Origin: an uncultured Clostridia bacterium
GTDB lineage: Bacteria > Bacillota > Clostridia > Oscillospirales > Ruminococcaceae
Assembly (NCBI GenBank): GCA_947625335.1
Contig: CANQNY010000007.1
Coordinates: forward strand, 1-37,739
Direction: 5' to 3'
DNA: 37,739 nucleotides
The translations under genes were made by a program, and so were the position numbers. Within the stretch, counting starts at the first letter, position 1, and each line of letters opens with the position of its first letter. The notes under the pieces are model-generated. The model was not told the DNA's origin, did not search any database, and was given only the letters and a program-made list of their open reading frames with translations. Positions 5,599 through 35,854 of the stretch are shown one piece after another.

Positions 5599-7421
5599 TG
5601 GCTGTTATTGCAAATGAAAAATGGTTGCCTTCTGATAATATAATTCTTGAAGAAAATGCAGTTGATGCAATTAAAGCAGATGGTAATGTTCTTGTCGTTG
5701 CTGGGCCAGGATCAGGGAAGACAGAATTATTAGCACAAAAAGCTAACTACCTGTTTGAAACTGATAATTGCAAAGAACCATATAAAATATTGGCAATCAG
5801 TTTTAAGAAGGATGCAGCCAAAAATCTTAAAGAACGCGTGGAACAAAGATGTGGTAAAGAAACAGCAGGTCGCTTTGATTCAATGACATATGATGCGTTT
5901 GCCAAAAGCCTTGTAGACCATTTTCGCTTAGCACTTCCACAAGAATTATGTCCTAATCAAGACTATATTGTAGAAAATAAAGAAGATATATTAAAAGAAG
6001 CTTTTGGACGATATAGTAATTTTAGTTCAAGAAATTATGATACTATCTTATCATCAGTATCACTTCCATTCGCCAAAGATGTGGTGATAGAAATGGTATG
6101 GCAGCTTCTGATACATGGCTTTGACGGACACGAATCAATGCTTACCTTTAAAATGATTAGTATGTTGGCAGAGTTTATTATAAGAACTAATGGATTGATA
6201 AAGCTTGGATTGCAAGAAACATATAAATACGTTTTCTTAGATGAATTTCAAGACACAACATCTCTTCAATATAACCTAGTGAAACAATGTTTCTTATCTT
6301 CAAAGGCGTTAATTACAGCGGTCGGAGATAACAAACAACGTATAATGGTATGGGCTGGAGCAAGAAAAACAATTTTCGTAGATTTTCAGAATGATTTTAA
6401 TGCGATCAAATATAAACTCATAATGAACCACAGATCCGCACCAAGGTTAGTTGACTTACAGAGAAAAATGTATTCCGTGCTTAATGAAAGTGATGGGCGA
6501 GTACAGCATACAACAAAATGGAGAAATGATGATGGAATTATAAACTTGTTTATTTCAGATAATTCCGAATCAGAAGCATTAGCAATAACTAATAACATAT
6601 TTAAAAAAATTGAAACTGGAATTTCTACGAAACAAATATGTATTCTTTGCAAACAAAAGCCACAAGATTATACTCAATTAATCATTGATTATTTGGGACA
6701 AAAAGGCATATATGCTAGAATTGAGAATGATTATCAAGATTTAATCAAAGAACCTATTATTGAAATTATTCTTTCTATTCTATTACTCTCCTGTAATCGG
6801 AAACATCCTGATGATTGGCAAGTATTAGTATCTTCTATAATAGAGCTGTGGAACATCTCGGATACACAATCTGATGATGAATACTTTAATGTTCAAAGCC
6901 AAATTGATGAGGAGTTATTAAGAATTAAACAACAGTTTAGCTTAGTAACAACAAAATCTGAGTTCTATGATGTATTAAAGGAAATAGTGTCATTTTTGAA
7001 ATTTGATCGTATTAAAGCTGTGTTTCCAGAATATAGTCAAGGAAAATATATAAATGATGTCCTCGATAAATTTGCAAAGCTTTTTTGGGATGAATTAGAA
7101 AAAACATCCATTGATTTGAATATGTCTATTGAGCGGTTTAAGGGGCTACACTCAATTCCAATAATGACAATTCATAAAAGCAAGGGATTGGAATATGATA
7201 CCGTGTTTTTTGTAGGATTAGAAGATGCTGCGTTTTGGAATTTCAAAAATCAACCTGATGAAGATCGCTGTGCTTTTTTTGTTGCTCTTTCTCGTGCTAA
7301 GAGTGAAGTGTCATTTTCTTTTTGTAAGAATCGAAATCATAAAACGCAAAAGCATAATGATATTAATGAATTTTTTGATCTGTTACAGGAGCCTGGAATT
7401 GCAAATATAATATATAACTAG
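5598..7421 (+). CDS. gajB: GajB-like UvrD/Rep superfamily 1 helicase (Gabija)
   Basis: 607 aa from the ATG at 5598, which shares its A with the TGA of gajA (TGATG), so translation is coupled. A GTG one codon earlier is possible. SF1 motifs in order: I GPGSGKT (~37-43), II VFLDEFQDT (~210), III AVGDNKQRIMVWAGA, IV NHRSAPRLVDLQ, V TIHKSKGLEYDTVFF and VI VALSRAKSEVSF near residue 560. In Gabija, GajB is thought to sense DNA ends made during phage attack and to act with GajA. It is somewhat longer than the ~500 aa usual for GajB. No accessory domain is obvious at either end. Confidence 0.87.
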   Translation: MAVIANEKWLPSDNIILEENAVDAIKADGNVLVVAGPGSGKTELLAQKANYLFETDNCKEPYKILAISFKKDAAKNLKERVEQRCGKETAGRFDSMTYDAFAKSLVDHFRLALPQELCPNQDYIVENKEDILKEAFGRYSNFSSRNYDTILSSVSLPFAKDVVIEMVWQLLIHGFDGHESMLTFKMISMLAEFIIRTNGLIKLGLQETYKYVFLDEFQDTTSLQYNLVKQCFLSSKALITAVGDNKQRIMVWAGARKTIFVDFQNDFNAIKYKLIMNHRSAPRLVDLQRKMYSVLNESDGRVQHTTKWRNDDGIINLFISDNSESEALAITNNIFKKIETGISTKQICILCKQKPQDYTQLIIDYLGQKGIYARIENDYQDLIKEPIIEIILSILLLSCNRKHPDDWQVLVSSIIELWNISDTQSDDEYFNVQSQIDEELLRIKQQFSLVTTKSEFYDVLKEIVSFLKFDRIKAVFPEYSQGKYINDVLDKFAKLFWDELEKTSIDLNMSIERFKGLHSIPIMTIHKSKGLEYDTVFFVGLEDAAFWNFKNQPDEDRCAFFVALSRAKSEVSFSFCKNRNHKTQKHNDINEFFDLLQEPGIANIIYN

Positions 7422-9117: not shown

Positions 9118-10035
9118 TCATATATCCTCGTTAAAGAAATCAGAATCAATTCTTTTCACACAGTATGTAGCCAAAGTTGAAACGCCAAGATTATATTCAA
9201 TCATCAACTTTGCAAGCTGTTTTCCGTTTACAAGAACAATTTTATTCTGCGTTTGCTTTGAAACAATTTCCGCAGCGCCTTTTGTAAAATCAGATGTTGT
9301 TATGAATATCCCTTTAGTCGCGCCTTGCGTAGTAGCAAGCGCGCCGATAAATTTTTGTATTTCGGGACGGCTGACAAGATTATCTTTTTTCCACTATTTA
9401 GCTTGAATATAAATACAATCAAATCCAAACTTGTCCGCGCTTACAATCCCGTCAATGCCCTCGTCCCCAGATTTCGGAGTAACTGCGTCCTTGTTTTCTT
9501 CCATCGTTCCGTACCCCATTGCAATCAGCAATTTGACAACAAGCCGCTCGAAATCATACGGCGATATTTTCATAATTTCCGACATCAGATCTTCTACAAG
9601 CTCGTCGTCCAATTCTTTAAGAGCTGATGCTATTCGCTCCTGCGGACTTTCCGAATTTGAAGAAATTTGCTGTTCGCTTTCATCACCGTGCAAAGAATGC
9701 CCTTGAAAATCCTTGAAAGTTTCAAATTGATTGAGATACTCTAAAGTAACACATTCCGCGCCTTGTTGGAAAGCGTTTTTCCCAAGTGCTGTCAGACAAA
9801 AATGTGCCCTCTGCGGACTTTCAATAAGACCTGCTTTCATCATATATGTTTTTGCCCAGCCAACTCTGTTATGCAGTCTGTTCTGACCACTAGATATTAC
9901 CTCAGCTTTGTCTTCGTCGCTCAATTTAAACACGTCAGCACAATATAACGTCAGTTCTTTTAGGGTGTGTATTTTCCCGTCCCCAAGGCAATTAATAATT
10001 ACAGGCATCAGTTCATAAAATTTCGGCACAGCCAT
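9118..10035 (-). pseudogene. mrr: Mrr-type restriction endonuclease with in-frame TAG
   Basis: From the ATG at 10035 (AAAGGAG upstream) the frame encodes an Mrr_N-like winged helix (~1-95) and an Mrr catalytic domain starting near residue 150 (PYDFERLVVKLLIAMGYG, then GDEGIDGI with the catalytic Asp). It reaches IQAK, the [E/Q]xK motif, and stops at a TAG at 9394-9396. Past the TAG the same frame stays intact for 91 more codons (WKKDNLVSRPEIQKFIGAL, TKGIFITTSDFTKGA) to the TGA at 9118, which is the normal remainder of Mrr. Full length would be ~305 aa. Mrr enzymes cut modified DNA and can be toxic to the host, so inactivation is plausible. The TAG sits where relatives have Lys or Arg. Confidence 0.85.
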
Positions 10036-11699: not shown

Positions 11700-12956
11700 A
11701 TGGTAAATCAATGCATATATATCACGGCGTCGGAGCTTGCAAGTATCATGGGCGTGTCAAACAGCCGCGCCTATAAGCTGATACGCAAGATGAATTCCGA
11801 GCTGAAAAAACCAAGACCCGAAAACCGCCGGAGAGCCGCTTTGCTCGTACCTCGAAAAATGCTTGTGCGGATATTAAGCCGCTGCAAAAGGCGGCATTGC
11901 AGATGGGGAGCCTGCAAAAAACGAAAATCAAAAGTTCGGCAGGAAAAACGCCGCAAAGCCGTAAAATGCGAAGTTGATAAAACTCAAAGCGCGGAGGAAT
12001 TGCTGCGCGAATTTTTATCCGAGCAGAAAGCCGATTTTGACATCACATTTTCAGATTTTATTGAAATGTATTTCAAAAGCATTTCTCCCCGCCTGCGTGA
12101 AAATACTCTGCGAACCAAGCACTATATCGTTGATCTGAAAATTCTGCCCTATTTCGGCGCAAAGAAAATAAACGAAATAACCCCTGCGAATATCATAGAC
12201 TGGGAGAATGAAATGCTGTCAAAAGGTTATTCTCAGACTTATATGAAGTCTGTTTACAATCAGCTGAACGCTATCTTCAACTATGCGGTAAGGTACTACG
12301 ACCTGCGCGCGAACCCCTGCGCCAAAGCGGGAGCTATCGGAAAAAGCAAAGCCGAGGAAATGAATTTCTGGACGAAAGACGAATTTGAACGGTTCGTGGA
12401 GTGCATTGCGGACAAGCCCATGTCCTACGCGGCGTTCTATATCCTGTTCTGGACGGGTTTGAGAATTGGGGAACTTTTGGCTCTCACTCCTGCGGATATA
12501 AATTTTGACAAGAAAACGCTTGCCGTAAATAAATCCTATCAGCGGCTCGACAACAGAGATGTTATCACGCCCCCGAAAACCCCCAAAAGCAAGCGCGTTA
12601 TATCGATACCGGATTTCCTTTGCGAGCTGCTTAAAGCGTATTGCGGCAGCCTGCAAAACGTAGGCAAAAACGACAGAATTTTTCCGTTTACAAAGTATTA
12701 TCTCCACTACGAAATGCGGCGCGGCTGCAAGAAAAGCGGCGTAAAGCGGATAAGGCTGCACGACATTAGGCACAGTCATTGCGCGCTGCTGTACGAGCTT
12801 GGAATACCGCCGCTTGAAATTGCCGAGCGCTTGGGACACGAGCGCGTCGAAACCACTATGCAGGTGTACGCGCACCTTTACCCCAACAAGCAGGAAAAGC
12901 TGTCCGCAAAACTGGAGGAATTTATGAAAAACGAAAACGAGGAGAAAGGCGCCTGA
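11700..12956 (+). CDS. Tyrosine recombinase with fused Xis-like N-terminus
   Basis: 418 aa. Residues ~8-36 form a MerR/excisionase-type helix-turn-helix (ITASELASIMGVSNSRAYKL). Then comes ~50 residues of very basic sequence, a core-binding domain (~115-215) and the catalytic domain with GLRIGE, HDIRHSH, LGHE and the Tyr in TTMQVYAHLYP. Related elements carry a separate small Xis-like gene upstream of int, and int normally starts with an arm-binding domain. Here the HTH runs straight into int and the arm-binding domain is absent, so a deletion or frameshift may have fused them. The basic linker (RRRAALLVPRKMLVRILSRC) has the look of out-of-frame DNA. The recombinase core is complete; activity is uncertain. 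Confidence 0.85.
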   Translation: MVNQCIYITASELASIMGVSNSRAYKLIRKMNSELKKPRPENRRRAALLVPRKMLVRILSRCKRRHCRWGACKKRKSKVRQEKRRKAVKCEVDKTQSAEELLREFLSEQKADFDITFSDFIEMYFKSISPRLRENTLRTKHYIVDLKILPYFGAKKINEITPANIIDWENEMLSKGYSQTYMKSVYNQLNAIFNYAVRYYDLRANPCAKAGAIGKSKAEEMNFWTKDEFERFVECIADKPMSYAAFYILFWTGLRIGELLALTPADINFDKKTLAVNKSYQRLDNRDVITPPKTPKSKRVISIPDFLCELLKAYCGSLQNVGKNDRIFPFTKYYLHYEMRRGCKKSGVKRIRLHDIRHSHCALLYELGIPPLEIAERLGHERVETTMQVYAHLYPNKQEKLSAKLEEFMKNENEEKGA

Positions 12957-12996: not shown

Positions 12997-13034
12997 AAAA
13001 TCGTATGATTTTTTGTGCGGCAGGGGTGATTTTC

Positions 13035-14531
13035 TTGGAGCTTGAATATGTAAATTCGGAAAAGTTCGGTTCTCCGAAGATCCGCCTTATGCGCGACAAA
13101 AACGGAAATTTATTCGTCCGAAAGAATGTAAAGCTGCCGCACGAGCTTTCCGAAAAGCTGCTGAAAATCTCCTCGCCGTATATTGTGAAATTCGTAGAAT
13201 TCGGCGAGGACGAGGACGGTTTTTTCTCGGTGGAGGAGTTTATCGAGGGCGTTCCAGCAGCGGAAAAAACGTTTACGAAAAAACAAGCGTTTAAAGCGAT
13301 AATGCAGCTGTGCGAGGCAATGCGGACGCTGCACGGCGAAAACATAATTCACCGCGACATAAAGCCCTCGAACATAATTATCGCAAGCGACGGGAACATT
13401 CGGCTTATCGATTTTGACGCCGCGCGGGTTGAAAAAATCATCGGGGACAAGGACACGCAAATCCTCGGAACGGAGGGTTTCGCGCCGCCGGAGCAGTTCG
13501 GCTTTTCGCAAACAGACAGGCGGTCGGATATTTATTCGTTCGGCGTGACAATGAGGGTTTTGCTTGGTGAAAACTGCGCGGGGTTTGAAAATATCATCAA
13601 AAAATGCACCTCGTTCGACCCGAAATATCGCTATCGCGATATGGGGCAGGTAATGTCCGCAATACGGTTCGCAAGGTTTAAAAGGGCGGCTTTTCTCCCG
13701 CTTTTCGCGGCGGGTGCGGCGGGGCTAGCGATCGCTGTTTCGGCGGCTGCCGCGGCGTTTTTGGAGCGCGATGTTCCGACGTTTGAAGGACATTCCGAAA
13801 GAACGTTTTCGTCCGTTTCGGCAAGTTTGGTAAGCTCGGCAAGTTCGGCAATTTCAAGTTCCACAGCAGTTTCCTCCTCAAGCACAAAAATTCCGCAGAG
13901 TTCGGAAAGCTCAAAGAGTATAGAAAGCTCTTCTTTGAGCGTATCAAAAACACCCGAAAGCAGCAGTTCTTCGCCCCCGCCGCAATCAATTCAAAGTTCG
14001 TCATCAACGGCGTCTTCGCCTTCAATTTCTTCCCCGGCAAGCGTTTCGGAAAGCAAGCCTATATCCGAACCAAAACCGTTCGTTTTGCATACCTCGGATA
14101 TGGACAACCCGAACAAAATAACGTTCTACACGAAACAAAACAGCAGGGGCTATTACGAGGACAAATGCGACCCGTACATATTCTACGATGACCCGACGGT
14201 TACGGGGGATTGGGAACCTGCCGGAACAATACCCAAAGACGACCTTTACGATTGGGCGGCGGGACGCACTTTTATGTACAAGACAGGCAGGTGCTGGCTG
14301 GGGGATTTGAATATTGCCGCCGACGGGACGGCAGTCAACATAAACAGTCTGCCTATTCACTGGACAAACGGCTATATGATAATTCCCGGCTCGGGGCAGG
14401 TAATTGCACAAATGTTTACGCTGACTGCTGCGAACGGGTGCGAGTATCTTTTAGTTGAAAATAAAAACGGCGACTATGAACGAGAACTTGTTGTCGACTC
14501 TTATTTTATTTACACCCGAAAAGGAGGATAA
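13035..14531 (+). CDS. Membrane Ser/Thr protein kinase with exported C-terminal domain
   Basis: 498 aa from the TTG at 13035, which has AGGGGTGA 6 bp upstream. The upstream ATG at 13005 lies almost on the transcription start. The kinase domain spans ~1-210: VRK lysine near 30, catalytic HRDIKPSN (~106), DFD in place of DFG (~126), and APPEQF. A membrane segment follows (~216-245), then ~100 Ser-rich residues like a wall-spanning linker, and an exported domain of ~140 residues with many Trp/Tyr. This is a Hanks-type sensor kinase architecture, but the exported part shows no PASTA repeats. It is coupled to the XRE gene 3 bp downstream. I infer that the kinase senses an outside signal and may phosphorylate that regulator or neighbouring proteins. 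Confidence 0.88.
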   Translation: MELEYVNSEKFGSPKIRLMRDKNGNLFVRKNVKLPHELSEKLLKISSPYIVKFVEFGEDEDGFFSVEEFIEGVPAAEKTFTKKQAFKAIMQLCEAMRTLHGENIIHRDIKPSNIIIASDGNIRLIDFDAARVEKIIGDKDTQILGTEGFAPPEQFGFSQTDRRSDIYSFGVTMRVLLGENCAGFENIIKKCTSFDPKYRYRDMGQVMSAIRFARFKRAAFLPLFAAGAAGLAIAVSAAAAAFLERDVPTFEGHSERTFSSVSASLVSSASSAISSSTAVSSSSTKIPQSSESSKSIESSSLSVSKTPESSSSSPPPQSIQSSSSTASSPSISSPASVSESKPISEPKPFVLHTSDMDNPNKITFYTKQNSRGYYEDKCDPYIFYDDPTVTGDWEPAGTIPKDDLYDWAAGRTFMYKTGRCWLGDLNIAADGTAVNINSLPIHWTNGYMIIPGSGQVIAQMFTLTAANGCEYLLVENKNGDYERELVVDSYFIYTRKGG

Positions 14532-14533
14532 TC

Positions 14534-14965
14534 ATGATTACAAAGGAAAAAACCACAAACGATCTTGCGGGGGAGATAAAGTCCGCAAACAGCGCGGAGG
14601 AGTATCTTACCCAAAATTCCGATTATCTGCTCAGGCAGGATATTTCACAAGTGCTTAACAGCGCGCTTTTCAAAGCGAACCTTTCGGTGGCGCAGGTGAT
14701 AAAGCGCAGCGGACTTGCCCGCGCGCATGTTTATCACATTTTCAACGGAAAACGGCTGCCGTCGCGGGACAAGCTTATAGCGATTGCGTTCGGACTGGGT
14801 CTTGACGAAACGGAAACCGATCTGCTGCTGAAAAAATGCCGCTTTTCGCAGCTTTACGCGAAGGACGCGCGCGACGCGGTGATAATTTTCAACCTGTCGC
14901 ACGGGAGAGATGTTTTTGAAACCAACTGCGATCTCGAAAGCCATGGGTTCGAGCTGTTGAAATAA
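14534..14965 (+). CDS. XRE-family helix-turn-helix regulator
   Basis: 143 aa. The HTH lies in the middle (NLSVAQVIKRSGLARAHVYH, then GKRLPSRDKLIAIAFGLGL), flanked by an N-terminal helical extension (~1-40) and a C-terminal segment that ends KDARDAVIIFNLSHG. The ribosome site AAGGAGG lies inside the end of the kinase gene, so translation is coupled. Pairing of an XRE protein with a Ser/Thr kinase suggests phosphorylation-controlled transcription. The two palindrome promoters just downstream are the obvious candidate targets. That link is inferred. Confidence 0.8.
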   Translation: MITKEKTTNDLAGEIKSANSAEEYLTQNSDYLLRQDISQVLNSALFKANLSVAQVIKRSGLARAHVYHIFNGKRLPSRDKLIAIAFGLGLDETETDLLLKKCRFSQLYAKDARDAVIIFNLSHGRDVFETNCDLESHGFELLK

Positions 14966-15017
14966 GTTCTCCGAACCTTACGGCGGCAGGCTTTGCATGC
15001 ATTTTTAATAAAAAACA

Positions 15018-15043
15018 CCCCGCTTTACAAAGCGGGGCTTTTT
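15018..15043 (+). terminator. Terminator after kinase/XRE operon
   Basis: Perfect 9-bp stem CCCCGCTTT / AAAGCGGGG with a 2-nt spacer and a following CTTTTT. T-rich on the other strand as well. Confidence 0.85.
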
Positions 15044-15054
15044 CGTCCGAAATT

Positions 15055-15098
15055 GTCTACTCGCAGCAGACCAAATCACCGCGGGAATATGATATAAT
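15055..15098 (+). promoter_or_regulatory. Palindrome promoter, copy 1
   Basis: GTCTACT-CGC-AGCAGAC (15055-15071, one mismatch), 21 bp, then TATAAT (15093-15098). No consensus -35 box is seen, so activation by a protein bound at the palindrome is likely. Flanking bases (AATTGTC, GACCAAATC, GGGAATATGATATAAT) match copy 2. Confidence 0.7.
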
Positions 15099-15148
15099 AA
15101 AGATGTTAAGCTGCAGGCTTAAAAAATCATCGTTTGGGAGGGTTTTTT

Positions 15149-15367
15149 ATGAAAATTCCGTATAACGTCAAAAACGGCTATCAGGTGTGCGCTTTTTGCA
15201 AGTATTGGTACGACCCGGGAAATACGGCGATAAAACCGAAAGATCCGCAGCACGGTATGTGGGAATACGACTCCGAGGCAAAGAGTTATTGCACAATACA
15301 CCAAGGTCAAACTATCGCGCTTGCAAAAAGCCGTTGTTCGCATTTTGAGTGCAAGATACCTAAATAA
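15149..15367 (+). CDS. Cys-rich 72-aa protein
   Basis: 72 aa from the ATG at 15149 (GGGAGGG upstream; an earlier in-frame ATG overlaps that site). CAFC near residue 14, then YCTIH and RCSHFEC near the end, give five Cys plus His residues placed for one or two metal sites. Many Tyr/Trp. I do not recognise the family. It is expressed from palindrome promoter copy 1 and closed by its own terminator, so it is a free-standing member of the regulated set. Confidence 0.75.
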   Translation: MKIPYNVKNGYQVCAFCKYWYDPGNTAIKPKDPQHGMWEYDSEAKSYCTIHQGQTIALAKSRCSHFECKIPK

Positions 15368-15381
15368 ATCGATGTTTATGA

Positions 15382-15416
15382 AAACAACCCCGTTTCTTGA
15401 TAAAACGGGGTTGTTT
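15382..15416 (+). terminator. Terminator after the Cys-rich gene
   Basis: Perfect 14-bp stem AAACAACCCCGTTT / AAACGGGGTTGTTT with a 7-nt loop. Confidence 0.85.
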
Positions 15417-15426
15417 ACTTGAAATT

Positions 15427-15470
15427 GTCTACTCGCAGTAGACCAAATCTCTGAGGGAATATGATATAAT
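15427..15470 (+). promoter_or_regulatory. Palindrome promoter, copy 2
   Basis: GTCTACT-CGC-AGTAGAC (perfect 7+3+7, 15427-15443), 21 bp, TATAAT (15465-15470). Same order and spacing as copy 1, 372 bp upstream. Confidence 0.75.
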
Positions 15471-15532
15471 ATAGAAAAAACATAGTTGTCGGACAAAACA
15501 ACGGACGGCAATCAGAAAGCGAGGGTATACGT

Positions 15533-15766
15533 ATGGGCTTTTGGGATTTTGTGCAGGGCGTACTCGAAGTTGTGGAGAAGGATAATGAAATTTCCTCTTT
15601 AAATTCACAAATTGAGGCTGTTGACAGACAAATCGCCGATCTGAAAAGCGATTTTTTAGGCTCGATTTTGAATTTTGAGCAGCTCGAAGAGCTCAGGCGC
15701 AAGCGTCAGGAATTAGTCAACGAGCGCGACGACCTTATCGAAGAACGCGACTCGATGACGGGTTAA
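15533..15766 (+). CDS. Small coiled-coil protein, paralog 1 of 3
   Basis: 77 aa, starting MGFWDFVQGVLEVVEKDNEI: a short amphipathic head followed by a coiled coil with heptads. It holds the shared core (LKSDFLGSILNFEQLEELRRKRQEL) seen in the next two genes. The leader AGAAAGCGAGGGTATACGT before the ATG is nearly the same as those of the other two, so gene and leader were duplicated together. First gene after palindrome promoter copy 2. Family unknown. A role as a small structural or adaptor protein is a guess. Confidence 0.8.
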   Translation: MGFWDFVQGVLEVVEKDNEISSLNSQIEAVDRQIADLKSDFLGSILNFEQLEELRRKRQELVNERDDLIEERDSMTG

Positions 15767-15790
15767 TCTAAGAAAGAGAGGGTAAACGGT

Positions 15791-16030
15791 ATGGACGATT
15801 TTGAAAATGAATTGGCACTTTTTATGCTCGATGAACTGGAAAAAGAACTGGATAATGTATTCGATAATTTTGATAAATCTCTGGAATTGACATCTGAGAT
15901 TGCAAAAATTTCCGGGAAAATCACCGAATTAGAGAATGAATTTCTGGGTCCGCTTATAAACGCTGACGAAATTGCGCGACTTAAGAGGAAAAAGCAGCAG
16001 CTTACCAATGAGCTCAACAGCTTAGGGTAA
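15791..16030 (+). CDS. Small coiled-coil protein, paralog 2 of 3
   Basis: 79 aa. Acidic N-terminal half (MDDFENELALFMLDELEKEL), then the shared core with variation (LENEFLGPLINADEIARLKR, KKQQL). The leader AGAAAGAGAGGGTAAACGGT matches paralog 1. It has no Gly/Trp head like the other two, so it may have a different partner. Confidence 0.78.
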   Translation: MDDFENELALFMLDELEKELDNVFDNFDKSLELTSEIAKISGKITELENEFLGPLINADEIARLKRKKQQLTNELNSLG

Positions 16031-16082
16031 TTTGAAAAGCCGCAATTCGGGCAAAAACTGCCAAGAAAGTGAGGGTAAAGGT

Positions 16083-16322
16083 ATGGGCTATATATTTGAT
16101 TCTATTGTTGACGGGTTGTTTGAGGGCGTTGCGTTGGGAAACGAAATGTACGTTTTGAAATCGCAAATAGATGAAATCGACGAAGAAATCAGCAGTTTAA
16201 GAGGTGAATTTATGGGCTCGATTGTAAACCGCGCCCAACTTGAACGGCTTAGGAAAAAGCGCATGGAGTTGTCAGACAAGCTTGCCAAATTAAAAATCAC
16301 CGGGCAGTCGGACAGCTATTGA
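16083..16322 (+). CDS. Small coiled-coil protein, paralog 3 of 3
   Basis: 79 aa from the ATG at 16083; an earlier in-frame ATG lacks the conserved leader. MGYIFDSIVDGLFEGVALGN repeats the head of paralog 1, and LRGEFMGSIVNRAQLERLRK repeats its core. The leader AGAAAGTGAGGGTAAAGGT matches the other two. Three tandem copies with conserved spacing imply that dosage or hetero-assembly matters. Confidence 0.8.
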   Translation: MGYIFDSIVDGLFEGVALGNEMYVLKSQIDEIDEEISSLRGEFMGSIVNRAQLERLRKKRMELSDKLAKLKITGQSDSY

Positions 16323-16347
16323 TAACCGCGATATTCCGCAAGTTGCC

Positions 16348-16377
16348 AAAAGCCTGCTTTTTCGGCGGGCTTTTTTT
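16348..16377 (+). terminator. Terminator after coiled-coil triplet
   Basis: AAAGCCTGC pairs with GGCGGGCTTT (one wobble), followed by a T-run. No new promoter is evident before the TIR gene, so partial readthrough may feed it. Confidence 0.7.
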
Positions 16378-16411
16378 CCGTGAATAAATTATTCAAAAGG
16401 AGTTTTTATAA

Positions 16412-18820
16412 ATGGCTGTTTTTAACTGCAAAAGCTGCGGCGGAGATCTTGAGATCCAAGAGGGTACAACTGTTGTTACCTGCGAATACTGCGGGCGGCA
16501 GCAGACTGTTCCGAGCGCAGACAACGAGAAGAAAGTAAACCTCTTCAACCGCGCAAACCGCCTCAGAAGCCGCTGCGAATTCGACAAGGCGGCAGGCGTT
16601 TACGAGAGTATCGTCGCGGAATTCCCGTCCGAATCCGAGGCGTATTGGGGACTTTGCCTGTGCAAATTCGGTATTGAATACGTCGACGACCCCGCAACGT
16701 CCGCCAAAATCCCGACCTGCCACAGAACGTCCTTTGAAAGCATTTTCGACGACTCAAACTTTGACCTCGCCTGCGAAAACGCCGACGCTCTGGCAGTGAA
16801 CGTTTATCGGGACGAGGCAAAGGAAATTGACCGACTGCAAAAGGAAATTCTCGCAATAGCGAAAAACGAGCAGCCGTTCGACGTCTTTATCTGCTACAAG
16901 GAAAGCGACGAACTGGGCGGGCGCACCGTAGACAGCGAACTGGCGCACGACATCTATGACGTTTTGACGGAAAACGGCTACAAAGTCTTCTACTCGCGGA
17001 TTACGCTGAAAGCAAAGCTCGGTCAGGACTACGAGCCGTACATATTCAGCGCGCTGAATTCCGCTAAAGTAATGCTCGCTGTCGGCACGAAGTTTGAATA
17101 TTTCAACGCCGTGTGGGTCAAAAACGAGTGGTCGCGCTTTCTCGATTTAATGCGGAAAGACCCGACAAAAAAACTTATCCCCTGCTACCGCGACATTGAC
17201 GCATACGACCTGCCGAAAGAGTTCGGCAACCTGCAGGGACAGGACCTCAGCAGTCCGCGCGCGTTTCAGGATTTGATGACAAACATCGGGCGAATTATCC
17301 CGAAACAGCAGAAAACCGCCGCTTCGGGGGTTTCGGACCCTGCGCTTGAAAATATTCTTAAACGCGCCTACATCAGCCTTGAGGACGGCGACTGGGACAC
17401 CGCAAACAAGATGTGCGAGAAAATCCTCGACTCCGACGCCGAAAACGCGCAGGCGTATTTGGTAAAATTGTGCATTGACTACAAGCTCCGCAAGCCGTCG
17501 GATCTCGGCGGGCTGAAAGTTCCCATCGACGGAAATAACAATAATTACCAAAAGGTTCTTCGGTTCGGCGACAAGGCTCTGACCGAGGAAATTGAGGGCT
17601 ATAGGCGGCAAATTATTGAAAAAACGCAGATTGCCGTGCTTGTCGAGAAATTCGAGCGCGGGGGCGATTTACTTAATTACATCGACTTGGTAAAGGAAAT
17701 AGCGAAATACTCGGAATTCAAAAGCGCGAACGAGCTGTTTGAAAAGTGTCGGGAAAAGGTTTACGAACTCGCTGAGAAGGAATTAGACGCGCAGAACTAC
17801 GCTCTCGCGGTGCAGGGTTTCAAGGTGATTCCGGGCTACAAGGACGCGGACAATTCGGCTGACAAAATCAAAGAGAGAATCATCTTAAAGTCGCTCAAAG
17901 AGGAGTTTGAACAAGGCGGAAATATCAGCCACTACCGTGATCTCCTAGAAGATTTCGAGAAGTATTCGGGATTTAAGGACGCAGACGAGTGGGCTGAAAA
18001 ATGCCGCGAGATAATCTACGACAAGGCAAAACACGCGTATGACGCGAAAAACTTTGACCAAGCAAAGCAAGGTTTCAAGGCAATTCCGGGCTATAAGGAC
18101 GTTGACGAGTTTGCAAAAGAATTAGGAATAGTCTATGATACCGCAGACGAAGATAAATATATAATTCGTCGTGACACCAGCACATCAAACGATGTCAGCC
18201 AAGAACCCGCAGCAGAAAAGTCCGATGTCTCGGCGGAAAATTCAAATCAAAACGCTGCAATTGACATTTTAACACAAGGCGTTTCAGCGCAAAGCGAAAA
18301 CGAACGCATAGAGAGGGTAAAGAAAAGCAAAATTCTAGCTGTTATGTTGTCGCTGGCAGCGGTGGCGGTCGTGATTGTCGGCATTATTGTCACCGTGAAC
18401 GTTCATCGTAAAAATGTGGCGAATGATGCCATTGTAGCAAGTGAACTAAGGGAAATAGCCGAAAAAAACATTGGTGAAATAGTTGAAATATTCAATACGC
18501 CTATTAACGAACTCAAAAACTGGGACAGTATAACCGTTACAGAAGAGTTGTGGAACGGGTATGAAATGAGTTACCTCGCTTCCAACGGAAAAGAATACAA
18601 CATAACAGCTGAAGTTTGGGGTAGCGATTATGACAGACCACCAAGTCAATTGGAAGTACCTATTGGAATGCTTCTTCACGACAAATCAAAGTACTCTTAT
18701 AATGAACTTGTAAAGATTTTTGGAGATAGTGTTAATTACGGTGTAACAATTAACGGCGTTATAGTTCGCTTTAATAACTATGATGAAGACCAAACATACT
18801 GTGAATTGAGAAATTATTAA
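16412..18820 (+). CDS. Zinc-ribbon / TIR / TPR-like repeat membrane protein
   Basis: 802 aa. Residues 6-28 are a zinc ribbon (CKSCGG, CEYCG). ~40-150 is helical and TPR-like (FDKAAGVYESIVAEFPSESEAYWGL). ~154-300 is a TIR domain: FDVFICYKESDE opening strand, DIYDVLTENGYKVFYS, and WVKNEWSRFLDL, whose Glu (~239) aligns with the catalytic Glu of NAD-cleaving TIRs. ~310-590 has helical repeats with a recurring GYKDAD. There is one membrane segment (~640-665) and an exported C-terminal domain. Bacterial TIRs cleave NAD or make signal nucleotides in immunity. Fixing a TIR to the membrane with an outside domain suggests that it senses envelope events. The ribosome site AAAGGAG supports the start. The SPFH gene follows 31 bp later. 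Confidence 0.85.
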   Translation: MAVFNCKSCGGDLEIQEGTTVVTCEYCGRQQTVPSADNEKKVNLFNRANRLRSRCEFDKAAGVYESIVAEFPSESEAYWGLCLCKFGIEYVDDPATSAKIPTCHRTSFESIFDDSNFDLACENADALAVNVYRDEAKEIDRLQKEILAIAKNEQPFDVFICYKESDELGGRTVDSELAHDIYDVLTENGYKVFYSRITLKAKLGQDYEPYIFSALNSAKVMLAVGTKFEYFNAVWVKNEWSRFLDLMRKDPTKKLIPCYRDIDAYDLPKEFGNLQGQDLSSPRAFQDLMTNIGRIIPKQQKTAASGVSDPALENILKRAYISLEDGDWDTANKMCEKILDSDAENAQAYLVKLCIDYKLRKPSDLGGLKVPIDGNNNNYQKVLRFGDKALTEEIEGYRRQIIEKTQIAVLVEKFERGGDLLNYIDLVKEIAKYSEFKSANELFEKCREKVYELAEKELDAQNYALAVQGFKVIPGYKDADNSADKIKERIILKSLKEEFEQGGNISHYRDLLEDFEKYSGFKDADEWAEKCREIIYDKAKHAYDAKNFDQAKQGFKAIPGYKDVDEFAKELGIVYDTADEDKYIIRRDTSTSNDVSQEPAAEKSDVSAENSNQNAAIDILTQGVSAQSENERIERVKKSKILAVMLSLAAVAVVIVGIIVTVNVHRKNVANDAIVASELREIAEKNIGEIVEIFNTPINELKNWDSITVTEELWNGYEMSYLASNGKEYNITAEVWGSDYDRPPSQLEVPIGMLLHDKSKYSYNELVKIFGDSVNYGVTINGVIVRFNNYDEDQTYCELRNY

Positions 18821-18851
18821 GCCAACAAAACCATGATTTAAGGAGGTAAAT

Positions 18852-20747
18852 ATGGCAAAATTTGTAATTGAATGCCCCAAATGCGGAAGTTACGCCGAGG
18901 GGAAAACGGGCTTTTTCGCGCGAAAGAAAATCGACTGCAGCTGCGGCTACACAATCGACGTCCGCACCGACAAAATCACCACGCGCGTTTGTCCGCATTG
19001 CGGAAACACCGTCCTCTACGACCAGACCAAGGGCGAGGACGCAAAATGCCCCGTCTGTCACGAGAACATCGTAACCGGGGAGAGCATGAGCGCGCTTGCA
19101 CAGTTCACCTGCCCGTCCTGCTCGTGTCAGCTTTTCGCGGACAAAAACGCCGAGGAATACACCTGCCCGCTTTGCGATACGGTAATCGACGTTCAAAAGC
19201 AGATTGCCGCGAACAAATCGAAAAGCGGCGGTATGCCGAGCGTTATCGAGTGCAAGATGGACAACACCGTGTTCGTGAAACGTCACCCCATCGACAATTT
19301 CGTCACGGGCTCTAAACTTATCGTCCACGAAAGCCAAGAGGCGGTTTTCTTTAAGGACGGAATGGCGCTTGATTCGTTCGGTTCGGGCGGGCATATCCTG
19401 ACAACGGACAGACTGCCGCTTATGAACGAGGCTGCGCCCCTGCCGTTTTCCAACGGCGACCCGTTCCGCGCGGAGGTCTATTTTGTAAACAAGACCGAGC
19501 AGAAAGAGATTAAATGGGGTACGCCCGAAAAAATCGGAATTCGCGAGTCCAAGTACAAAATGTACATAAATATCGGAGCGTTCGGCACGTTCAATATGGT
19601 AGTTAAGGACGCGAGAAGATTTCTTATCAAAAATATCGGCGCGGCGTCCGATTTCAAGCAAAGCGATATTGTCGGGGACAGCGAACTTTCCACAAGCACG
19701 GCGTCGGGGCAGTTTAAGGACCTGATTTTAAACAAAATTGTCGATGTGCTTGGGAATACGATCGAAGAACAGCAGCTTGACATTTTCCTGCTCGATTTGC
19801 AGAAAGAAAAGCTTGCGGCGGCAATCCGCGATGTTATCAATGAACAGCTTGAAGATTACGGCTTGTATATGCCGCAGTTCTACATCAGAAAAATAGCTCT
19901 CCCCGAAGACGACCCGAATTTCAAGCGTATGCGCGAAAAGCTGGCGGCGCAGTCGCTGAATGTCCTCGAGGCGGAAACTGCCGAAACCGAACGCGCACAG
20001 CAGATAACCCGCGCGACAACGGCGGCGGACGTCGACTTTATCAAGGCTCAGAACGAGGCGCGCAAAAAGCTGCTTTTGGAGCAGACGCTCGCGGCAGGAG
20101 AACAGGCTCACGGCGAGGCGGAGGCTAACGTTATGAAAGCTAAAGGCTACACTTATCAGCAGGAAACCGCCCGCAAAGTCGGTCTGGAGGCTATGCAGCA
20201 CGGAATTACGGGCGGCGCAGGAGGCTCCGGAGGCGCGGGCGGCGGCATTGCAAGCGATGTTATGGGACTCGGAATAACGCTTGGGGCAATGGGCGGCGTG
20301 ATGAATATGGCGCGCGACGCTCTCGACCCCGTTATGACCTCCGCGAGCGAGATCGGCAGCGGCGTTGCAGGAAATATTCGGCAAACTGTCGCGGATACTT
20401 GGAATTGCTCGTGCGGAGCGGCAAATATTACCTCAAAATGCTGTCCCGAATGCGGAGCAAAACGTCCCGAAACCGTTTTGGGGTGGGAATGTCCCGAATG
20501 CGGCTGTAAAAATATTACCTCGAAATTCTGCCCCGACTGCGGTGCGAAAAAGCCGCAGCCTCCCGCAGCGTGGGATTGCCCGAAATGCGGCTGTAAGGGG
20601 ATATTAAGCAAATTCTGTCCCGACTGCGGCGAGAAAAAAACCGAAGAGCCCGAAATGTGGGATTGCCCCGAGTGCGGCTGCAAAAATATCACCTCGAAAT
20701 TTTGCCCCGACTGCGGAGCGAAAAAACCCGAAACCGTAAAAACCTGA
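18852..20747 (+). CDS. SPFH (stomatin/YdjI-like) protein with multiple zinc ribbons
   Basis: 631 aa. The first ~115 residues carry three zinc-ribbon-like CxxC sets. ~125-400 is an SPFH/Band-7 core resembling Bacillus YdjI (VIECKMDNTVFVKRHPIDNF, AVFFKDGMALDSFGSGGHIL, YFVNKTEQKEIKWGTPEKI, KIALPEDDPNFKRMREKLA). A charged coiled coil and a Gly-rich stretch (~460-520) follow. The C-terminus has four zinc ribbons in tandem with the pattern CPECGCKNITSKFCPDCGAK. SPFH proteins build membrane-associated ring or raft scaffolds, and the zinc ribbons could recruit partners. The start has AAGGAGG. It lies between the TIR gene and a membrane-protein gene with short gaps, so the three are probably one operon. 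Confidence 0.88.
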   Translation: MAKFVIECPKCGSYAEGKTGFFARKKIDCSCGYTIDVRTDKITTRVCPHCGNTVLYDQTKGEDAKCPVCHENIVTGESMSALAQFTCPSCSCQLFADKNAEEYTCPLCDTVIDVQKQIAANKSKSGGMPSVIECKMDNTVFVKRHPIDNFVTGSKLIVHESQEAVFFKDGMALDSFGSGGHILTTDRLPLMNEAAPLPFSNGDPFRAEVYFVNKTEQKEIKWGTPEKIGIRESKYKMYINIGAFGTFNMVVKDARRFLIKNIGAASDFKQSDIVGDSELSTSTASGQFKDLILNKIVDVLGNTIEEQQLDIFLLDLQKEKLAAAIRDVINEQLEDYGLYMPQFYIRKIALPEDDPNFKRMREKLAAQSLNVLEAETAETERAQQITRATTAADVDFIKAQNEARKKLLLEQTLAAGEQAHGEAEANVMKAKGYTYQQETARKVGLEAMQHGITGGAGGSGGAGGGIASDVMGLGITLGAMGGVMNMARDALDPVMTSASEIGSGVAGNIRQTVADTWNCSCGAANITSKCCPECGAKRPETVLGWECPECGCKNITSKFCPDCGAKKPQPPAAWDCPKCGCKGILSKFCPDCGEKKTEEPEMWDCPECGCKNITSKFCPDCGAKKPETVKT

Positions 20748-20762
20748 TGTAAAGGAGTAATT

Positions 20763-21455
20763 ATGAGCAAGAAAAGTAAATCAATCCTTGCAATTTACGC
20801 GATAATTTTCGCAGCGTATTGCGTGCTGTTTTTCGCTGTGCCTTTCCCGAAAATCGGAGCATGTTGGGCGGAATTTGCGTTTTCCGTGGTCGCGATAATC
20901 GCGGGTTGCGGGATAAGCCTATACGCGTTTAAAAACGAGGGCTTGAAAAGCAAAATCTACGGATTCCCGATGTTCAGAATTGGGTTTATTTATATGATTT
21001 TACAGCTTGTTGCCGCAGTTGTAATAACAGCCTTATCGTTTTTTACAGCCGTACCCATGTGGATAGCCGTCGTTATTTCGGTGTTGATTATGGCGTTTGC
21101 GGGAATCGGAGTTATCGGCTCGGACAACGCCCGCGATATAATTACCGAACAGCAGCAAAAAACCGAGCAAGCGGTAAGTCAGATGAAAACTTTCCGCTTG
21201 GATATGGGGAATATCGTCGAAATTTGCAGCTTTCCCGAACTTAAAAAGCCGCTGCAAAAGCTTGCTGACGATTTCCGATACGCCGACCCCGTGACCAGCG
21301 AGGAACTGTCGGGCGTGGAGGAAAATCTCAAAGCGCAGGTGAAGGCGTTGTCGGCGTTGGTGAATACCGACAAGGAACTTGCACAAAAGAAAATCGGCGA
21401 GGTGTCGGCGCTGCTTGCCGACCGAAACCGCAGGTGCAGAGAACTGAAAAAATAA
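20763..21455 (+). CDS. Membrane protein with cytoplasmic helical domain
   Basis: 230 aa with four transmembrane segments in the first ~120 residues, then a charged helical cytoplasmic part (ITEQQQKTEQAVSQMKTFRL, LQKLADDFRYADPVTSEEL, NTDKELAQKKIGEVSALLAD). The FRYADPVTSEEL stretch recalls XpaC-like membrane-associated proteins, but I am not sure of the family. It starts 15 bp after the SPFH gene with AAAGGAG and is the last gene of the TIR-SPFH unit, so it is a candidate membrane anchor. Confidence 0.75.
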   Translation: MSKKSKSILAIYAIIFAAYCVLFFAVPFPKIGACWAEFAFSVVAIIAGCGISLYAFKNEGLKSKIYGFPMFRIGFIYMILQLVAAVVITALSFFTAVPMWIAVVISVLIMAFAGIGVIGSDNARDIITEQQQKTEQAVSQMKTFRLDMGNIVEICSFPELKKPLQKLADDFRYADPVTSEELSGVEENLKAQVKALSALVNTDKELAQKKIGEVSALLADRNRRCRELKK

Positions 21456-23146: not shown

Positions 23147-24565
23147 ATGATTAAGTCGAAAAAAAGTGTTTGGAACAGCAGCGTTCCTGTTGAAAAAAGT
23201 CCTTATTTACACCAAGGTGCTGTTAAATATATAAATATCGACAACTTTTCTTTCGACCCCGCAAAACTGACAATGCTTGATCTGTTTTGCGGCGCCGGCG
23301 GGTTTGCAGTCGGTTCTTCGTGGGCAGGTTTTCAGTCTGTTCTCGGAATTGATTTTCTTAAGCCTGCAATGGAAACTTGGACTTATAACCACCCGAATTC
23401 CATAGGATGTCTTGGAGATATAAAGAAAATAGACCCCGAATATATAAAAAAACTGCTTGAAAGCAAAGGAGTTCGGACAATTAACCTTATTACGGGAGGC
23501 GTTCCCTGTCAAGGTTTTTCACGAGCTAACCGCAAACACAACGACAACGACGAGCGAAACTATTTGTTCCTTGAATACATGCGTTTTGTCAAAGCGTTTA
23601 TGCCCGAATACATTATTTTAGAAAACGTCTCCGGAATGAGAAATACAGCAGGCGGTCATTTTGAAACGCAAATCAAAAGCGCTATGGAAGAATTGGATTA
23701 TACCGTGACCGTGAAGTTGGTGAATGCCGCCGACTACGGCGTGCCGCAAATCAGGCAGCGGCTGTTATTTGTCGGCGTAAAAAACAATTCGGGTTTAACC
23801 GTTCCGTTTACATTCCCCGAAGGTGAATTTGTCGGACGTTATAGGACGGTTTCAGACGCTATTTCGGATCTGCCGGCTCTTGAGAATAACCAATCAAAAA
23901 ACGAATATGAATTGCCGCCGAAAACCGAATATCAACAGCTGATGCGAGGACGCGGAACACTCGATATTACCCCCGCAAAAGGTCTGTTTAATCATTCAGC
24001 TCCAAATCATTTACCCGATGTGTTAAAAAATATAGCGCGGACAAAACCGGGAAAACCTATGTATTCAAAATTTAAACAACGTATTCGTTTAAGAAACGAT
24101 ACTCCCAGCCCAACGCAATTAGCGGGCGGTATACGCCCTCAGTTTCAGTTCGGACACCCGTCGCAGATTCGCGGATTGTCTATAAGAGAACGCGCACGAA
24201 TACAGAGTTTTCCCGACAGCTATATTTTCTGCGGCGGAATGGTTCAAGAAAGAGTTCAAACCGGAAACGCAGTTCCGCCGCTGCTGGTATATAATATCAC
24301 TAAACCGATCGCCAATGATATTATTAAAAAAAGGAGCAAAAAAATGTATAGGGTTTGGTACAGCACCGAGAGTTTTGCCGACTATATCATTGACCATACC
24401 GATCTGTCTGCAGAAAAACCTATTAAAAGTTATATGTATGAGAGCGACGCGTCAAAGCCGCGGCACTTTCATTCTATGCCCGATCATATTCGTCGAATTT
24501 TGTACTTAGACGCCCCCGACTTAATCGTTGAACGCAACAACGAGCCGATTTTCTCTATCGAATAA
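23147..24565 (+). CDS. DNA (cytosine-5) methyltransferase, frame running into the next gene
   Basis: The ORF encodes 472 aa, but the methyltransferase ends near residue 395. Motifs: I LDLFCGAGGFAVG (44-56), IV with catalytic Cys121 in GGVPCQGFS, VI ENV (~159), VIII QIRQRLLFVG, a target domain (~220-330), IX RERARIQSFPDSY, and X QTGNAVPP. It transfers methyl groups to C5 of cytosine in the recognition site and so protects host DNA. After IANDIIKK the frame runs through two A7 runs into the endonuclease ORF without a stop. One extra A in the first run would end the gene as KKKEQKNV plus TAG, overlapping the next ATG (ATGTATAG), a classic overlap. The visible fusion is therefore probably caused by a lost A. 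Confidence 0.92.
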   Translation: MIKSKKSVWNSSVPVEKSPYLHQGAVKYINIDNFSFDPAKLTMLDLFCGAGGFAVGSSWAGFQSVLGIDFLKPAMETWTYNHPNSIGCLGDIKKIDPEYIKKLLESKGVRTINLITGGVPCQGFSRANRKHNDNDERNYLFLEYMRFVKAFMPEYIILENVSGMRNTAGGHFETQIKSAMEELDYTVTVKLVNAADYGVPQIRQRLLFVGVKNNSGLTVPFTFPEGEFVGRYRTVSDAISDLPALENNQSKNEYELPPKTEYQQLMRGRGTLDITPAKGLFNHSAPNHLPDVLKNIARTKPGKPMYSKFKQRIRLRNDTPSPTQLAGGIRPQFQFGHPSQIRGLSIRERARIQSFPDSYIFCGGMVQERVQTGNAVPPLLVYNITKPIANDIIKKRSKKMYRVWYSTESFADYIIDHTDLSAEKPIKSYMYESDASKPRHFHSMPDHIRRILYLDAPDLIVERNNEPIFSIE

Positions 24566-25590
24566 CTACCGAGGCGGGTACGGGGCATAATGCTTTTCAA
24601 CGCTTTTCTCGAATTGCGGCAGCAGTTGAAAACGGCGTTCCCGCATTCTATATTTATCCGGAAGGCGTTATTATATCAAGGAAGGGCGCTGCCACAAAAT
24701 GGGACGCAATAAATCCGTTGATATTTAAGGCTTTAGAACAAATTATGGATATTTACGGTATCCCGGCGCTGTTGTACTATTACCCCTCCGATATGGCAAA
24801 TTACTGTAACAATCCTACAGAATGTCCGAATTACAACACAAAAGGTTTGAAAAATGACCCTGACATTGCAAAATACAGCGGCTGCCCGACTTCAGATGAC
24901 GCGCATATGCAACATATGTTTACGGCTATCAACGAAATATTAAACGCCGTTGAAACCGCAGGCGTCTATGACGGGCGGCAAAGCCTTTTGCGAAAAATGA
25001 CTTTCCGTGAGCAACGTAACTTTATGCAGGAACAATATGTAACTAAGGCAAACGGGAAAGCTGAATTTGAAATGTCCCCTTTAAGCGCGGTTACCGTATT
25101 GTCAACCGAATATTTGATGAACTACCTGTCACAATACGAAGATAGAAATTATCAGATCGGCGAACTGTTGCGGCAGAGAGATGAAACCGTTTTCTATCAA
25201 GTGAACGCTAAATTCAGGGGCGACCCATATCCGGGAGCATTGGCGGCAATCGACTACTTAACTTGCCGCGACGGCAAAACATACGAGGATCGGCAGAAAA
25301 ATCTTGTCCTTGTATTTGGAAAAATCGTAGTTGACAACGAACAGCGCACCATCAAAATCGTCGACGAAAAAGGTTCTACTATAGATGACTTTTTCAAAAC
25401 TGTAATAGATTCGGAAAATCACAATTTGTTGACAAAGCGTTATAAAGATTTGCGAAATTTTGAGATACCGCGATATTTTATGCAGGCTAGGTATGGCTCG
25501 ACATATTCAAAGGCTAAGCACATCCGCGTCTTTTCGTACTTTGCAGACGGCGTTCTGTTTCCTGACGGGGCGTTATGGAGAGATGGCTGA
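24344..25590 (+). pseudogene. Restriction endonuclease-like gene, frameshifted
   Basis: The start at 24344 has AAAGGAG 7 bp upstream and reads MYRVWYSTESFADYIIDHTD up to NNEPIFSIE, where TAA (24563-24565) ends the frame. Adding one A at 24561-24562 (GAATAAC to GAAATAAC) joins it to ITTEAGTGHNAFQRFSRIAA and the open frame to 25590, giving ~414 aa. The region APDLIVERNNEPIFSIEITTE looks like a nuclease core with acidic residues on adjacent strands. Placement right behind a C5-methyltransferase supports a restriction enzyme, but I do not recognise its specificity group. As written, the cell would have methylation without this nuclease. Confidence 0.75.
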
Positions 25591-26039
25591 TGAAAGAAGA
25601 GCAAGTTACGAAAGCAATTTTGGAATGGTTGATTTCGCACAAGTGGAAAATCGTATGTTTTGACTTCCCGCAAAGCGGAACAGGCAGAATATTGCACCCT
25701 AACAACGGCAATTATGATAAAAACAAGGACGCAATAATTCCCGACATAGTAGCTTTGAAAAATAGAGTATGCGTTTTCTTTGAAAACAAAAACCGCTTTT
25801 ATCGTCCGGATTTTGAAAAACAAAACGCCATAAAAAACGGGAATGAATACGACGAGGCTATTATGAACTTGCTTAAAGGATACTCCGTCGACAGTATTTT
25901 TTGGGGGATCGGTTTGCCGAGCGCAAATCACAAGCAAGGTTCAAAAAATGCAGCACACCTTGTTGATTTTATTATTTGTGTAGATGAAGATAAAACAATT
26001 CACGCAGCCTATAATCCGTTGGGAATCTCATTTGAATAG
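25590..26039 (+). CDS. PD-(D/E)XK-like nuclease, second restriction gene
   Basis: 149 aa. The ATG at 25590 overlaps the TGA of the previous gene (TGATG), so translation is coupled. The motif IPDIVALKNRVCVFFENKNR has the form PD-(x)-ENK of the PD-(D/E)XK nuclease fold, preceded by an N-terminal helix region with a QSGTGR loop. Two endonuclease-like ORFs directly after one methyltransferase suggest a two-subunit restriction enzyme or a nicking partner. A Vsr-like repair role is less likely because Vsr motifs are absent. Confidence 0.7.
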   Translation: MKEEQVTKAILEWLISHKWKIVCFDFPQSGTGRILHPNNGNYDKNKDAIIPDIVALKNRVCVFFENKNRFYRPDFEKQNAIKNGNEYDEAIMNLLKGYSVDSIFWGIGLPSANHKQGSKNAAHLVDFIICVDEDKTIHAAYNPLGISFE

Positions 26040-35645: not shown

Positions 35646-35781
35646 CGCGTCAAAACGTTAATCAGAGTGTACGAGGAAATTGTTGACGGGAACTACATAG
35701 ACAACCTTGTCCGAGCGCAAGTTGAACAGCACCAAAGGCACTCGGCGGCATACAAAATTTAGGCATATTTCCGAATACATC

Positions 35782-35810
35782 TTGACTTTAAAGCACAGAA
35801 GTGGTATAAT
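35782..35810 (+). promoter_or_regulatory. Promoter of the integrase at 35855
   Basis: TTGACT (35782-35787), 17 bp, TATAAT (35805-35810). Confidence 0.82.
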
Positions 35811-35854
35811 GAAAGTGCAGAAATATGCCGCGTTGTAAATTAGGAGGGTTTACA

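Follow-up and report, generated by a model that had tools for sequence, protein, structure and literature searches.

TIR, SPFH and a small membrane protein form a recurrent gene set and a candidate receptor system in Clostridia

Positions 1 to 37,739 of contig CANQNY010000007.1, from an uncultured Clostridia bacterium (assembly GCA_947625335.1; genome of 2.24 Mb, 93% complete), make up the window analyzed here, and they raise the question of which of its neighboring genes belong together and what they do. Between positions 11700 and 21455, all on the plus strand, lie in order the genes for an integrase, a membrane Ser/Thr kinase, an XRE regulator, a Cys-rich protein, three coiled-coil paralogues, a TIR protein, an SPFH protein and a membrane protein of 230 residues (MEM). 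A sequence-only reading had taken the genes from the kinase to MEM as one signaling or defense module. The genes that it noted are real, being co-oriented open frames that bear the features claimed, and the conserved unit is smaller, consisting of TIR, SPFH and MEM. With moderate confidence, we propose that these three proteins may form a membrane-bound receptor system.

The conserved TIR, SPFH and MEM unit

16412..18820, plus strand: predicted TIR receptor of 802 residues, with a zinc ribbon (C6/C9/C24/C27), TPR, TIR (158–286), TPR-like repeats (~302–635) and a helix (641–659)
17126..17128, plus strand: codon of Glu239 (WVKNEW), the predicted TIR catalytic residue, aligned to the flax L6 TIR
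18852..20747, plus strand: SPFH protein of 631 residues with seven zinc-ribbon-like Cys sets (Band_7_1, E 1.4e-38)
20763..21455, plus strand: MEM, 230 residues, hydrophobic helices followed by a conserved C-terminal part (SDP, RN..C)

The TIR protein passes the cut-off of the TIR_2 profile (E 5.1e-13), and the zinc ribbon, TPR-like repeats and membrane helix first ascribed to it are all found; residues 660–802, beyond the helix, are its predicted exoplasmic part. The seven zinc-ribbon-like sets attributed to the SPFH protein correspond to 14 Cys-pair motifs, of which six precede and eight follow the SPFH domain. Hydropathy gives MEM, which had been noted as a further membrane protein, three hydrophobic helices, and its relatives have three or four; no known domain matches it over cut-off, and solved folds match it by sequence only weakly (best E 0.029). 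The gaps between the three genes are short, 31 bp between TIR and SPFH and 15 bp between SPFH and MEM, and the set is therefore probably one operon.

Across 295 genomes of the order, searched at thresholds of E 1e-20 for TIR and E 1e-4 for MEM, TIR was matched in 25, MEM in 21 and both in 19 (Fisher p 9e-23). The SPFH search matched 144 of these genomes, many through the zinc-ribbon end only. In 36 larger stretches around TIR matches, SPFH is present in 19 and MEM in 15; the kinase, XRE, Cys-rich and coiled-coil genes are present in none. A scan of genome contigs yielded at least 568 relatives among the 591 stretches listed, with record titles naming Clostridia, Lachnospiraceae, Oscillospiraceae, Erysipelotrichaceae and similar, many from gut or rumen. 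The 78 named loci retained include 47 with SPFH, 43 with MEM and 42 with both, and SPFH lies directly upstream of MEM in 40; among the 37 loci of at least 17 kb, SPFH is present in 25 and MEM in 24. The samples L033–L068 and L069–L146 are not independent, as at least five contigs, matched by their lengths, recur. The expectation that TIR, SPFH and the 230-residue membrane protein would be neighbors elsewhere is thus borne out in many genomes, and TIR occurs with MEM and SPFH beyond chance; this co-occurrence does not extend to the whole stretch from kinase to MEM.

Loci often hold more than one TIR frame: 43 of the 78 have one, 21 two, nine three, four four and one five, counts that include fragments as well as L083 15000, a zinc-ribbon protein that lacks TIR. 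The distribution is patchy, TIR being present in 20 of 148 genera sampled, and among 398 genomes from the phylum, matches at E 1e-30 were found only in the window's own genome and one other of the same class. The 1.6-Mb genome G002 shows 11 TIR-head matches over several contigs, some of them partial. One viral contig (IMG/VR, L147) carries SPFH, MEM and TIR, either as a phage-borne copy or as host DNA.

SPFH and MEM also occur apart from TIR. Genomes G196 and G254 possess MEM and gave no TIR match in the 295-genome search; their SPFH-MEM genes adjoin zinc-ribbon proteins without a Pfam TIR match, one with TPR and an L12-type domain (L213) and the other with an L12-type domain (L214). Genomes G136 and G093 each have a second SPFH-MEM pair (L215, L217), and these pairs likewise adjoin zinc-ribbon proteins lacking a TIR match. 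In G274, SPFH is followed at the end of one contig (L222) by the beginning of a relative of L083 15000, 78% identical to it and also free of TIR matches; at the start of another contig (L221), the same relative precedes MEM. This pattern is thus seen in six of the 11 stretches examined (L213, L214, L215, L217, L221, L222). As for the rest, the TIR gene of L219 is cut by the contig end, L216, L218 and L220 are cut or ambiguous, and no zinc-ribbon, TIR-less neighbor of SPFH-MEM was found in L223. Since SPFH-MEM can stand beside zinc-ribbon proteins that lack TIR, the zinc ribbon is the part in common and probably docks on SPFH-MEM.

A domain resembling the C-terminal domain of ribosomal L7/L12 occurs in proteins beside SPFH or MEM in L213, L214, L221 and L222. 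Stretch L214 (140-6845) encodes, in a row, SPFH, a zinc-ribbon protein, MEM, a YhcG-type nuclease and a SIR2-STAND protein.

Catalytic residue, heads and tails of the TIR proteins

In an alignment with solved structures, E239 falls on a flax L6 residue, the Glu of WCLMEL (E 0.022, a weak match), which we take to be L6 Glu135, equivalent to the catalytic Glu642 of SARM1. The glutamate near position 239 singled out by the earlier reading is, by this alignment, the right residue; E208 (YEPY) was also considered and was rejected, as the L6 alignment points to E239. Three alignments, of 22, 30 and 16 sequences, show E239 as invariant. Its equivalent is kept in 110 of 111 proteins (longer than 450 residues, uncut by a contig end and with a zinc-ribbon-like start), and the exception is L083 15000, which lacks any Pfam match. 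The TIR domain is accordingly placed here among candidate NAD-cleaving enzymes, an activity that we infer from the alignments.

The N-terminal portions of these proteins (heads, residues 1–300) resemble each other within a locus more than the remaining portions (tails) do. For 62 same-locus pairs, three of which involve the TIR-less L083 15000, the median head identity is 66% (maximum 98%), and the tails can be aligned over more than half of the shorter tail at 30% identity or above in 17 pairs. In 13 pairs chosen for their similar heads, DNA identity is mostly 73–100% from the start codon to about nucleotide 850, where the TIR domain ends, and far lower upstream; it drops near nucleotide 850 in 11 of them and later only in L086 and L145. 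Silent four-fold sites differ by a median of 0.51 within loci (59 pairs) versus 0.71 between loci (400 random pairs), with two within-locus pairs below 0.25. Among 66 tandem genes, the best head match lies in the same locus for 33, and the best tail match does so for 15 of the 62 having any. The two proteins L077 5659 and 7819 have heads that are 92% alike and tails without a match to each other; one of these tails is 54% identical over 255 residues to a tail in L103, whose head is 60% alike. Similar same-locus heads joined to differing tails indicate that heads and tails have had partly separate histories, in which heads were homogenized or tails exchanged.

The tails consist of repeat folds usual in binding. 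In a scan of 108 tails, leaving out one shorter than 40 residues, L112 and the very long L126 4858, DUF6273 was found in 28, RCC1 in 27, LRR_5 in three, MORN in two and WG in one. A hydrophobic helix is present in 51 of the 111 proteins. For the window's own TIR protein, the 143 residues after the helix (660–802) had no match at E 0.01 in the loci from L033 on. Two proteins, in L113 and L140, have the chain order zinc ribbon, TIR, TPR, helix and leucine-rich repeats (LRRs), and thus share with Toll-like receptors and plant TIR-LRR proteins the presence of TIR, a membrane helix and LRRs in one chain (here as TIR-helix-LRR). They differ in being bacterial and in having a zinc-ribbon head and BspA-type LRRs, and the likeness is most likely convergent.

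The kinase-XRE unit and its operator

13035..14531, plus strand: membrane Ser/Thr kinase (Pkinase, E 1.5e-26), part of a separate unit
14534..14965, plus strand: XRE regulator paired with the kinase (HTH_31, E 6.5e-8)
15055..15098, plus strand: operator GTCTAC-N5-GYAGAC over the -35 region, with TATAAT, 5′ of the Cys-rich gene
15149..15367, plus strand: Cys-rich protein of 72 residues; an 87% identical copy adjoins kinase-XRE in genome G709
15427..15470, plus strand: second operator and promoter, 5′ of the coiled-coil genes
15533..15766, plus strand: coiled-coil protein 1, 77 residues, paralogue of proteins 2 and 3
15791..16030, plus strand: coiled-coil protein 2, 79 residues, 30% identical to protein 1
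16083..16322, plus strand: coiled-coil protein 3, 79 residues, 42% identical to protein 1
16348..16374, plus strand: hairpin followed by T, between the coiled-coil genes and TIR (-15.7 kcal/mol for a 48-nt stretch, z -1.7; 15/200 shuffles fold as well)

The Pkinase and HTH_31 matches, together with a single hydrophobic helix at residue 233 of the kinase (numbered in the 508-residue frame with the ATG start at 13005), agree with the earlier description of a membrane kinase and a coupled XRE regulator. ATG 13005 and TTG 13035 are equally possible starts. Through its kinase domain only, the kinase also hits models of kinases in PADLOC, for example mad6 (E 7e-29), and the coiled-coil proteins gave only weak coiled-coil matches in Pfam, NCBIfam and PADLOC.

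In 41 relatives surveyed for this unit, the window's own genome included, the kinase was found in 14, XRE in 13 and TIR in 15, and the kinase and TIR share a contig in only three of the 14 kinase genomes (G000, G698, G702). Genome G709 (83% complete) encodes, in the window's order and with the operator, the kinase, XRE, the Cys-rich protein (87%) and a coiled-coil-like protein (49% over 49 residues; L183 6055-9584), and no TIR match was found in it. On the G702 contig, a relative of the Cys-rich gene (42%) follows XRE. Neither the Cys-rich nor the coiled-coil genes, which had been assigned to one module with TIR, occur in any of the 78 named loci, and the co-occurrence expected of the small coiled-coil family fails, the family being present in one of the 295 genomes. 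The kinase, XRE, Cys-rich and coiled-coil genes are a unit separate from TIR-SPFH-MEM.

The small proteins had been said to stand on shared promoters, and one palindromic operator with TATAAT is indeed present in two copies, at 15055-15098 and 15427-15470, the operator lying 21 nt before TATAAT. The loci analyzed contain six perfect palindromes (four distinct; some loci overlap); for 150 permuted half-sites, the mean is 0.31 and the maximum 4. With two mismatches allowed, 43 genomes of the genus contain 24 places in 15 genomes versus 5 for the reversed pattern; several of those with two mismatches resemble chance occurrences. Exact sites number six, two each in G000 and G702 and one each in G718 and G709. 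Sites lie 5′ of the Cys-rich gene, 5′ of coiled-coil genes, beside XRE homologues (L193, L197, L206) and 5′ of a zinc-ribbon membrane protein (L198, judged by eye), and XRE is the presumed operator-binding protein. A further operator-like site with two mismatches, seen in two genomes including the window's own (L212, L209), lies 104 nt after a metK-like gene (by eye), with no clear gene downstream.

Does this unit control TIR? In G702, the start codon of the TIR gene lies 48 bp beyond the end of an operator palindrome and 21 nt beyond the end of TATAAT; control of TIR expression by kinase and XRE, as first proposed, therefore has support in one relative. In the window, no strong promoter was found immediately 5′ of TIR; the nearest candidates are at 16269-16297 (a weak match) and at 15427-15470 (the operator promoter). 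The hairpin at 16348..16374 is a possible leaky terminator, and stable hairpins also occur 3′ of XRE (z -3.4) and of the Cys-rich gene (z -5.0).

A receptor system weighed against known systems

In the mechanism that we favor, SPFH and MEM would build a ring-like membrane platform, on which the zinc-ribbon head would dock TIR proteins or, in some loci, other proteins. Each tail would sense a different signal, outside the membrane if a helix precedes it and inside if it is a soluble propeller. Sensing would cluster the TIR domains, leading to NAD cleavage and then to a growth stop or signal production, most likely in defense against phages or other envelope attackers. In at least one relative, the TIR operon carries the operator of the kinase-XRE unit. 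A wider proposal, which we put forward only tentatively, is that gut Clostridia possess an innate-immune receptor repertoire, in which SPFH-MEM docks zinc-ribbon proteins with TIR as the commonest head, the heads of a cluster are kept alike, and sensor tails, including Toll-like TIR-helix-LRR forms, are exchanged to give strain-specific sets.

The set had been called an undescribed candidate, and none of TIR, SPFH and MEM reaches the cut-off of a curated system model. PADLOC 2.0 gave no match for TIR or SPFH and a chance-level match of MEM to Cas5f (E 0.0022), and all three fall under the cut-offs of NCBIfam 20. No description of a TIR-SPFH system was found in the open-licence literature searched, and the TIR-SPFH-MEM set is not described in the excerpts of PMC7159879, PMC10936438, PMC11237479, PMC11204291 and PMC8581546.

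One of the closest known arrangements is PspA-YdjGHI of Bacillus subtilis, and the set could be a variant of it, an envelope-stress system with no immune role in which zinc-ribbon receptors replace PspA and TIR serves as a scaffold only. Both encode an SPFH protein with C-terminal zinc ribbons together with a membrane protein and a zinc-ribbon protein (the ydj operon pattern in the excerpts of PMC8581546 and PMC11237479), and the SPFH-MEM pairs with TIR-less neighbors and the lack of defense enrichment near the module (see below) would fit. However, PspA (PF04012) had no match in the window's genome (93% complete) in a search that did match in 9 of 14 control genomes; this counts against the known Psp reading. 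MEM also has no match to the TPM domain, a feature of YdjH. TIR receptors with diverse tails are present instead, and the nearly invariant Glu239 and the patchy presence also argue against such a system; we regard this explanation as rather unlikely. A Thoeris-like relay, in which several TIR sensors would produce a nucleotide signal to open a single common membrane effector, SPFH-MEM, appears less probable still. Thoeris combines one ThsA with one or several ThsB (excerpt of PMC11204291). Here, at least two TIR frames occur in 35 of the 78 loci, usually with one SPFH-MEM pair, the TIR protein retains the predicted catalytic Glu as in ThsB, and it shows a weak NCBIfam match to the Thoeris type III ThcB4 (20.5 bits against a cut-off of 220). 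Nevertheless, neither SPFH nor MEM matched SIR2, SLOG or macro domains in Pfam, no SIR2-SLOG or TM-macro effector was found among the nine proteins at 13005-21455, and some SPFH-MEM pairs adjoin proteins without a TIR match. The TIR proteins here also have zinc-ribbon/TPR heads and long, differing tails, which to our knowledge are not a feature of Thoeris sensors.

That the kinase, XRE, Cys-rich and coiled-coil genes form a single system with TIR, SPFH and MEM is the least probable of these explanations, and we consider it very doubtful. Co-orientation, the operator before the G702 TIR gene, the XRE and kinase homologues beside TIR in L070 and the contigs shared by kinase and TIR in G698 and G702 argue for it; the ordered, TIR-less unit in G709 and the absence of the Cys-rich and coiled-coil genes from all TIR loci argue against it. 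Single-gene TIR NADase defense, as in SpbK (excerpt of PMC12847820), shares the conserved Glu and predicted NAD cleavage, but the present set comprises three genes, is predicted to lie at the membrane and has differing tails.

Several observations weigh against the receptor system that we favor. SPFH was not seen in 31 of the 78 loci, many on short contigs, yet it is also missing from 12 of the 37 loci of at least 17 kb, and TIR can therefore stand without SPFH nearby. Of the 66 tandem genes, 33 have their best-matching head in another locus. A search for carriage by phages or plasmids, over annotated collections of 50,697 phage and 72,556 plasmid records, was negative. Defense genes are not enriched near the module: 12 PADLOC families gave hits (E 1e-15) in the set of 140 neighbors and 17 in the set of 140 controls, in a small and rough comparison of 140 of the 255 frames within 6 kb of 36 loci with 140 of the 228 frames from 20 same-genome stretches, some very short (one of 218 bases). 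These frames, of 130 to 900 residues, came uncleaned from a greedy caller, and at least one neighbor is a TIR fragment (L046).

A defense role for the module is plausible, and it seems likelier than plain envelope care, though not by much; it is favored because the TIR glutamate is kept, the spread is patchy, the tails are diverse and the window holds other defense genes. If the receptor proposal is correct, bacteria would have receptor families in which a single signaling head is combined with many sensor tails on a common membrane scaffold, a principle familiar from the immune systems of animals and plants. The large TIR family of Clostridia, with its at least 568 relatives among the matches listed, and SPFH proteins working without PspA would thereby gain a role, and every tail would offer a direct way to test what a bacterium senses.

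The defense genes of the window include a Gabija pair at 3544-7421 (GajA, E 1.2e-253; GajB, E 6.1e-222), with near full-length matches. An Mrr-like type IV restriction enzyme at 9394-10035 on the minus strand matches its profile over just the first 228 of 317 positions and is therefore probably shortened. At 23147-26039, a C5 cytosine methylase gene and the two genes after it, neither of which matches PADLOC, are possibly a restriction system. Two tyrosine integrases and a Mob_Pre relaxase are encoded at 11700-12956 and 34122-37048, and the region is therefore probably a mobile element.

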